From contig JAOJBP010000001.1 in the NCBI GenBank assembly GCA_028228555.1, forward strand, positions 1 through 64,000: a DNA stretch of 64,000 nt, read 5' to 3'. How positions within the stretch are numbered: position 1 is the stretch's first letter; each line of letters begins with the position of its first letter. Made by a program: the position numbers and the translations under genes. Positions 22,030 through 22,722 of the stretch are shown here, one piece after another. Source of the DNA: Candidatus Thioglobus sp. (lineage in GTDB: Bacteria; Pseudomonadota; Gammaproteobacteria; PS1; Pseudothioglobaceae). A model generated the notes under the pieces. It worked only from the letters and a program-made list of their open reading frames with translations, ran no database searches and had not been told where the DNA came from.

Positions 22030-22722
22030 ATGGTTCAATCTGATAAATTAACACAGCCAACTATGCAAACAAATACACCCGAACAAAACTATTATCAAGA
22101 AGACGAAATCGATCTCAAAGAATTGTTCGGAATTCTTTGGGCGAAAAAAACTTTAATCATCGGAATAACAACACTTATTACTGTGTTTGCAGGTATCTAT
22201 GCCTTTAACAAAACTCCTATTTATGAAGCGACTGCTCTAGTAGAGATTGGAAGTTATAAATTTCACAATACTGTCTTTATCAACAACAACAACAACAACA
22301 ACAACAACAACAAGATTCAAATTGAAAATGCTTTTGACTTGTCAATAAAATTAAATACTTTATTTCCTAATATAAATTCAAGTTCACCAAATAAAACCAA
22401 TTCATTTATTAATTTAAAGTCTGAATCTACCTCTCAAGAATTAGCAACAAACAATATAAAAGAAGTTATTAAATATATTACAACATTGCATCAAAAAAAT
22501 CTTAACAAGACAAAACTTGAATTACAATCAGTTAAAGGAAATCTTGTTTACAATTTTAACAATTCATTAATTATTGGTGACATTGATGCAAGTAAGAAAC
22601 CAATCAAACCAAAAAAGGAACTGATTGTAGCTATGGCGTTTGTTGCAGGATTTATCCTTTCAATCTTTTTGGTGTTTATTATGAATGCCTTTAGAAAGGA
22701 AGAGGATAAAGCCACTGCTTAA
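22030..22722 (+). CDS. Wzz-type chain-length determinant-like protein
   Basis: An acidic start with EIDLKELFGILWAKKTLI leads into the first TM helix (LIIGITTLITVFAGIYAF), followed by YEATALVEIG, the classic Wzz N-terminal domain. A periplasmic region rich in Asn and Lys follows, and then a C-terminal TM helix (VAMAFVAGFILSIFLVFIM) preceded by KKPIKPKKE, the Pro-rich motif of Wzz proteins. With 230 residues it is shorter than most (about 320), because the periplasmic coiled-coil part is reduced. It probably sets O-antigen or polysaccharide chain length. The start at 22030 is chosen because the frame upstream overlaps the adhesin, and 22063 is an alternative. It contains a run of ten Asn encoded by a CAA repeat. 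Confidence 0.75.
   Translation: MVQSDKLTQPTMQTNTPEQNYYQEDEIDLKELFGILWAKKTLIIGITTLITVFAGIYAFNKTPIYEATALVEIGSYKFHNTVFINNNNNNNNNNKIQIENAFDLSIKLNTLFPNINSSSPNKTNSFINLKSESTSQELATNNIKEVIKYITTLHQKNLNKTKLELQSVKGNLVYNFNNSLIIGDIDASKKPIKPKKELIVAMAFVAGFILSIFLVFIMNAFRKEEDKATA
22281..22313 (+). repeat. (CAA)11 trinucleotide repeat inside the Wzz-like gene
   Basis: Eleven perfect CAA units, read in frame as ten AAC (Asn) codons followed by AAG, lie in the periplasmic part of the protein after VFI. The tract is uninterrupted. Length changes would add or remove Asn residues without shifting the frame. Confidence 0.95.

Follow-up and report, generated by a model that had tools for sequence, protein, structure and literature searches.

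The window, the 64,000-nucleotide stretch of Candidatus Thioglobus sp. DNA analyzed here, carried a wzz-like polysaccharide co-polymerase gene at positions 22063-22722 of the forward strand. The start at 22063 was chosen because the orthologs begin there, a further in-frame ATG being present at 22030. A perfect (CAA)11 microsatellite of 11 uninterrupted units occupied positions 22281-22313 on the same strand and, in the frame of the gene, supplied ten consecutive AAC codons (22282-22311, forward strand). These encode a poly-Asn stretch at residues 74-83 of the 219-residue reading from that start, and the codon directly after them was AAG. Direct reading confirmed the uninterrupted tract reported by the first-pass annotation, and its description of the gene as Wzz-like was borne out by the Pfam Wzz (54.3 bits, cut-off 25.5) and GNVR (40.7 bits, cut-off 27.7) profiles, both over cut-off, together with the alignment of orthologs.

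Directly upstream of wzz, also on the forward strand, was a gene for a YadA-like surface protein (20433-21989; YadA_anchor 26.5 bits, cut-off 22.7), within which short 'NTSG..NTAxG' repeats were present. Downstream, a fabG-like gene named by eye (23013-23759, reverse strand) served as a synteny marker. The convergent wzz and fabG genes were separated by a perfect 19-nt inverted repeat with a 13-nt spacer (22769-22819) that is probably a two-way terminator; it was missed by the terminator scan, in which the loop limit was 8. Lipopolysaccharide genes lay within the window's initial 12 kb, 10-21 kb upstream of the tract, and the NCBIfam names assigned in these 12 kb were rmlA, rmlB, heptosyltransferase I and nucleotide-sugar dehydrogenase. 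The dTDP-rhamnose genes (1742-5198, forward strand) comprised rmlA and rmlB and, between them, two genes identified by eye as rmlC and rmlD. A Wzy_C-domain protein, an O-antigen ligase or polymerase (5226-6548, reverse strand), was recognized by Pfam and had no NCBIfam name. A Wzx-type flippase, a Polysacc_synt protein, was encoded at an end of contig C12 of the same genome (G000), and the Wzy/Wzx partners in this genome were thus one Wzy_C protein (ligase or polymerase) and one Polysacc_synt protein. The presence of the rml, heptosyltransferase I, Wzy_C and flippase genes indicated that a polysaccharide context exists, polymerase not being separated from ligase.

The tract is real and beyond chance. 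There were 6 overlapping (CAA)6 matches in the window, whereas 100 dinucleotide shuffles gave an average of 0.00. Across all 298,706 bases of contig C1, the second-longest period-3 run measured 19 bp, while the period-3 maxima in twenty order-5 Markov simulations, each the size of C1, ranged from 11 to 16 bp. Elsewhere on C1 the longest homopolymer was 9 and the longest dinucleotide run 11 bp, and the longest other single-residue run, counted in open frames of at least 150 residues, was six. Two longer tandem repeats, with units of 45 bp and 27 bp, both multiples of three, were observed at 61555-61641 and 61960-62012 of the window.

Proteins of the Wzz/PCP family have a long periplasmic middle part, a helical arm, between two membrane segments. 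The window protein resembled this family (PF02706 with PF13807) in that both domains scored over the curated cut-offs, hydrophobic segments were found near both ends and a DEIDL motif preceded the first of them; by sequence, its closest relatives of solved structure were Wzc and WzzE chains. It differed from the family in having a poly-Asn stretch shortly after the first membrane segment and in the loss of most of the middle part. The tract comes after the segment TPIYEATALVEIGSYKFHN and lies past the first hydrophobic stretch, so that the periplasmic location given in the first-pass annotation was soundly deduced. An hhalign alignment to E. coli WzzE ended at WzzE residue 74, just ahead of the tract. 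The position of the loop was taken from the sequence alignment, because the predicted structures of the window protein and of an ortholog, described below, from the mussel symbiont BHECKSOX were of low confidence (mean pLDDT 39.1 and 45.6, respectively). The window protein has 219 residues, as compared to 329 (genome G005) and 326 in orthologs. The approximately 110 missing residues make up the greater part of the middle region that G005 and G010 retain, and the net difference from the G005 gene, 330 nt, is made up of whole codons and leaves the frame open. Wzz was full-length in G005, G010 and G179. Since the middle part is absent, the window gene was classified as a shortened Wzz relative and not as a typical Wzz. 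The gene probably helps to determine how long a surface sugar chain becomes.

The comparison of orthologs was based on one genome per species, mostly draft assemblies. Within the genus, matches were found in 5 of 12 genomes, close ones in the window's own genome, G005 and G010 and weak ones in G008 and G011; family-wide, 21 of 83 genomes had some match to the profile, including numerous weak ones and several in long frames resembling Wzc. The rows used in the alignment of Wzz relatives were restricted to the window, G005, G010, G179 (another family), G026 (another genus of the same family) and G076, as many other loci were misframed; the G076 ortholog begins at a contig edge, past the tract site. 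A run of (CAA)6 or longer was found in two of the 12 genus genomes, those of the window and G005, as a single run in each, located in wzz. The G005 tract, a CAC codon followed by 12 AAC codons, amounts to 13 CAA units and falls on the homologous codons of the ortholog. At the same site G010 has AAC CAT AGC AAC AAC AGC AAC AAC, an interrupted remnant. The G010 gene is identical to its counterpart in BHECKSOX, the thiotrophic gill symbiont of Bathymodiolus heckerae, and this groups the window with relatives of deep-sea mussel symbionts. In G026, the neighbors tadA, wzz and fabG were kept and no tract was present in wzz, the product of which is 44% identical to the G005 Wzz.

The wzz gene was gone from the locus in G001, G007 and G080, where the YadA-like gene was followed directly by fabG. 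The YadA-like gene of G008 was followed by other genes, and other genes were also found beside tadA in G006. In three genomes the locus could not be read as far as fabG, the contig ending inside the YadA-like gene (G002, G004) or soon after tadA (G009), and the rest of these three genomes gave no wzz match. The YadA-like gene itself was seen after tadA in the window, G001, G002, G005, G007, G008 and G080, as a shortened remnant in G010 and not at all in G026. By eye, the spacer before fabG contained similar-looking hairpin-like inverted sequence at 2079-2283 of locus L075 (G001) and 2027-2198 of locus L082 (G080).

Codon usage within the tracts bears on how they arose. Every tract Asn codon was AAC in the window (10/10), G005 (12/12) and G179 (16/16), whereas outside the tracts of the same three genes AAT was preferred, AAC accounting for 5 of 20, 7 of 28 and 9 of 35 Asn codons, respectively. 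Across open frames in the initial 164 kb of C1, 473 of 1730 Asn codons were AAC. Synonymous divergence between the window and G005 was saturated, with dS about 2, in both wzz and guaA. The persistence of pure AAC in both tracts despite this saturation implies that the tract has been renewed, whether slippage is ongoing or each tract expanded recently and separately; the latter could hold for the tracts of the window and G005. Moreover, none of the 83 family genomes, of which many consist of a single contig, yielded a MutS match, against 11 of 14 controls; MutL was not found over cut-off in any of the 12 genus genomes, in which two weak sub-threshold matches occurred. The lack of MutS favors slippage. 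The available part of a report on a sponge symbiont describes the MutL-MutS system as absent there and in two more genomes, Rmag and Voku, which we take to be those of clam symbionts (PMC5361782). Loss of MutS is no proof of instability, since, in the accessible portion of a study of the longer-unit repeat of E. coli tolA, there was no significant effect of mutS (PMC3477136). In addition, the lack of long repeats elsewhere on C1 despite the missing MutS means that a neutral process alone fails to explain the one long tract.

Outside the family, an even sample of the class was searched (369 genomes), and (CAA)8 or longer was found in 12 of them. At least one tract was read in each of the 12, exclusive of a second site in G182 (on C216) and of additional sites in G086. 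Of the tracts read, those of the window and G179 were in Wzz and those of the ten other genomes elsewhere. In both the window's genome and G179 a run of (CAA)8 or longer occurred once, at the same Wzz codons. G179, the sole member of its family in the sample, has (CAA)15, encoding 16 Asn, at this place. Its Wzz shows about 48% identity (49% to the G005 protein over 322 residues), and the neighbors of its wzz differ. The gene after the G179 wzz (L132, 8775-10412) encodes a protein with repeated NEGV and NGGV motifs. From these sequences, common descent of a Wzz type, transfer and independent growth would be indistinguishable as origins of the shared tract. The proposal in the first-pass annotation that the tract is prone to slippage in frame was supported, at the level of species, by AAC purity past saturated dS together with the missing MutS, and the repeat number was not constant between species, the counts being 11, 13 and 15, with one further tract interrupted.

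The explanation that best accounts for these observations, to which we assign a probability of about 0.6, is that the repeat, located in a periplasmic loop of a protein of the Wzz/PCP family, is a live microsatellite that stays in frame and is tolerated. Replication slippage would add or remove CAA units, and hence Asn residues, in the membrane-proximal loop, and slipped units would escape correction by MutS, no mismatch repair having been found in the family. The loop would tolerate 10, 12 or 16 Asn residues or a degenerate Asn/Ser stretch, so that the number of units could drift between lineages while the frame is kept open. We infer that slippage is the process behind the length change, that the loop is permissive to length and that cells within one population differ in unit number. 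Any effect on glycan length would be expected to be graded and modest, and this length may be under graded control.

The first-pass annotation proposed a graded contingency locus. Under this reading, selection would keep the tract long and pure, and the number of units would adjust the modal length of an O-antigen or exopolysaccharide, so that the cells of a population have varied coats for encounters with host or phage. We regard this as possible but less likely. In its favor, no other long triplet repeat was found on C1 although MutS is lacking, which marks the site as special; (CAA)8 or longer recurs at the same Wzz codons in two families (the window and G179); and lipopolysaccharide genes (rmlA/rmlB, heptosyltransferase I, Wzy_C) lie 10-21 kb upstream, with a Wzx-type flippase on C12. 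Small changes can have such effects in other systems, in-frame insertions of five residues and a point mutation in the base domain having shifted the modal length set by Shigella WzzB in the section of that work available (PMC4574919), and in-frame repeat number having altered E. coli TolA performance and AhpC function in the accessible portion of another (PMC3477136). However, the window copy is about 110 residues short and its amino acid changes are accelerated relative to guaA, the perfect tract was lost in G010, wzz was lost at the locus in G001, G007 and G080, and G005 bears a tract yet gave no match to Wzy_C or Polysacc_synt in its draft assembly (94% complete). The broader proposal, that a graded contingency locus in Wzz recurs both among marine symbiont relatives that lack MutS and in one or more other families, with pure AAC maintained and slippage varying polysaccharide length, is slightly more doubtful.

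The losses of wzz from the locus in G001, G007 and G080 and the 110 codons missing from the window copy might instead reflect relaxed constraint, the gene being on its way out in a reductive lineage and the repeat growing because the protein matters little. Branch rates, obtained by subtraction of pairwise dN, pointed the same way, since wzz dN was about 3.6 times that of guaA on the window branch and about 2.0 times on the two others. Nevertheless, wzz dN/dS was still 0.07-0.14, a rough estimate since dS was saturated, the 330-nt net difference from G005 consists of whole codons with the frame open, and tracts also occur in the full-length genes of G005 and G179, so this account appears rather unlikely. 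That a fixed hydrophilic poly-Asn loop is itself selected as a protein-level spacer would fit the loop of G010, which stays Asn/Ser-rich where the DNA repeat is broken, but is improbable given that 38 of 38 tract Asn codons are AAC despite the preference for AAT, that tract lengths vary and that the G026 ortholog is without such a stretch. The genomes were mostly draft assemblies, which leaves room for an assembly error; a chance run, on the other hand, is excluded by simulated maxima of at most 16 bp, and either origin is scarcely credible for a tract that is found at the same site in three genomes and is shorter than ordinary read lengths.

If a triplet repeat at a fixed loop of a chain-length regulator does recur across families, it would represent a natural dial, and, where several symbiont strains share a host, it would supply surface variation from a source that can be tested. 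Should the microsatellite be tolerated and have no such role, it would still provide a fast marker for tracking strains in symbiont populations. No such repeat in Wzz or another co-polymerase was described among the matches listed, which were drawn from open-licence literature.

Simple-sequence contingency loci in coding regions are mostly on/off switches that act by frameshift. The window tract is more like the in-frame coding repeats of E. coli tolA and ahpC, which, in the available text of that study (PMC3477136), change the protein by whole residues with no frameshift; effects were measured there, whereas the window tract is known from its sequence. The tolA repeats also have longer units and, as far as that text goes, are altered mainly through RecA, unlike the window tract. 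The T-tract of Helicobacter pylori sabA, described as a rheostat in the accessible part of PMC4081817, shares the feature that slippage leads to graded output, but it works on a promoter, while the window tract changes the length of a protein. In the available part of the work on Shigella WzzB (PMC4574919), small in-frame changes, including some in the membrane-proximal base, shifted chain length. Those changes were engineered, whereas the window tract is a natural repeat.
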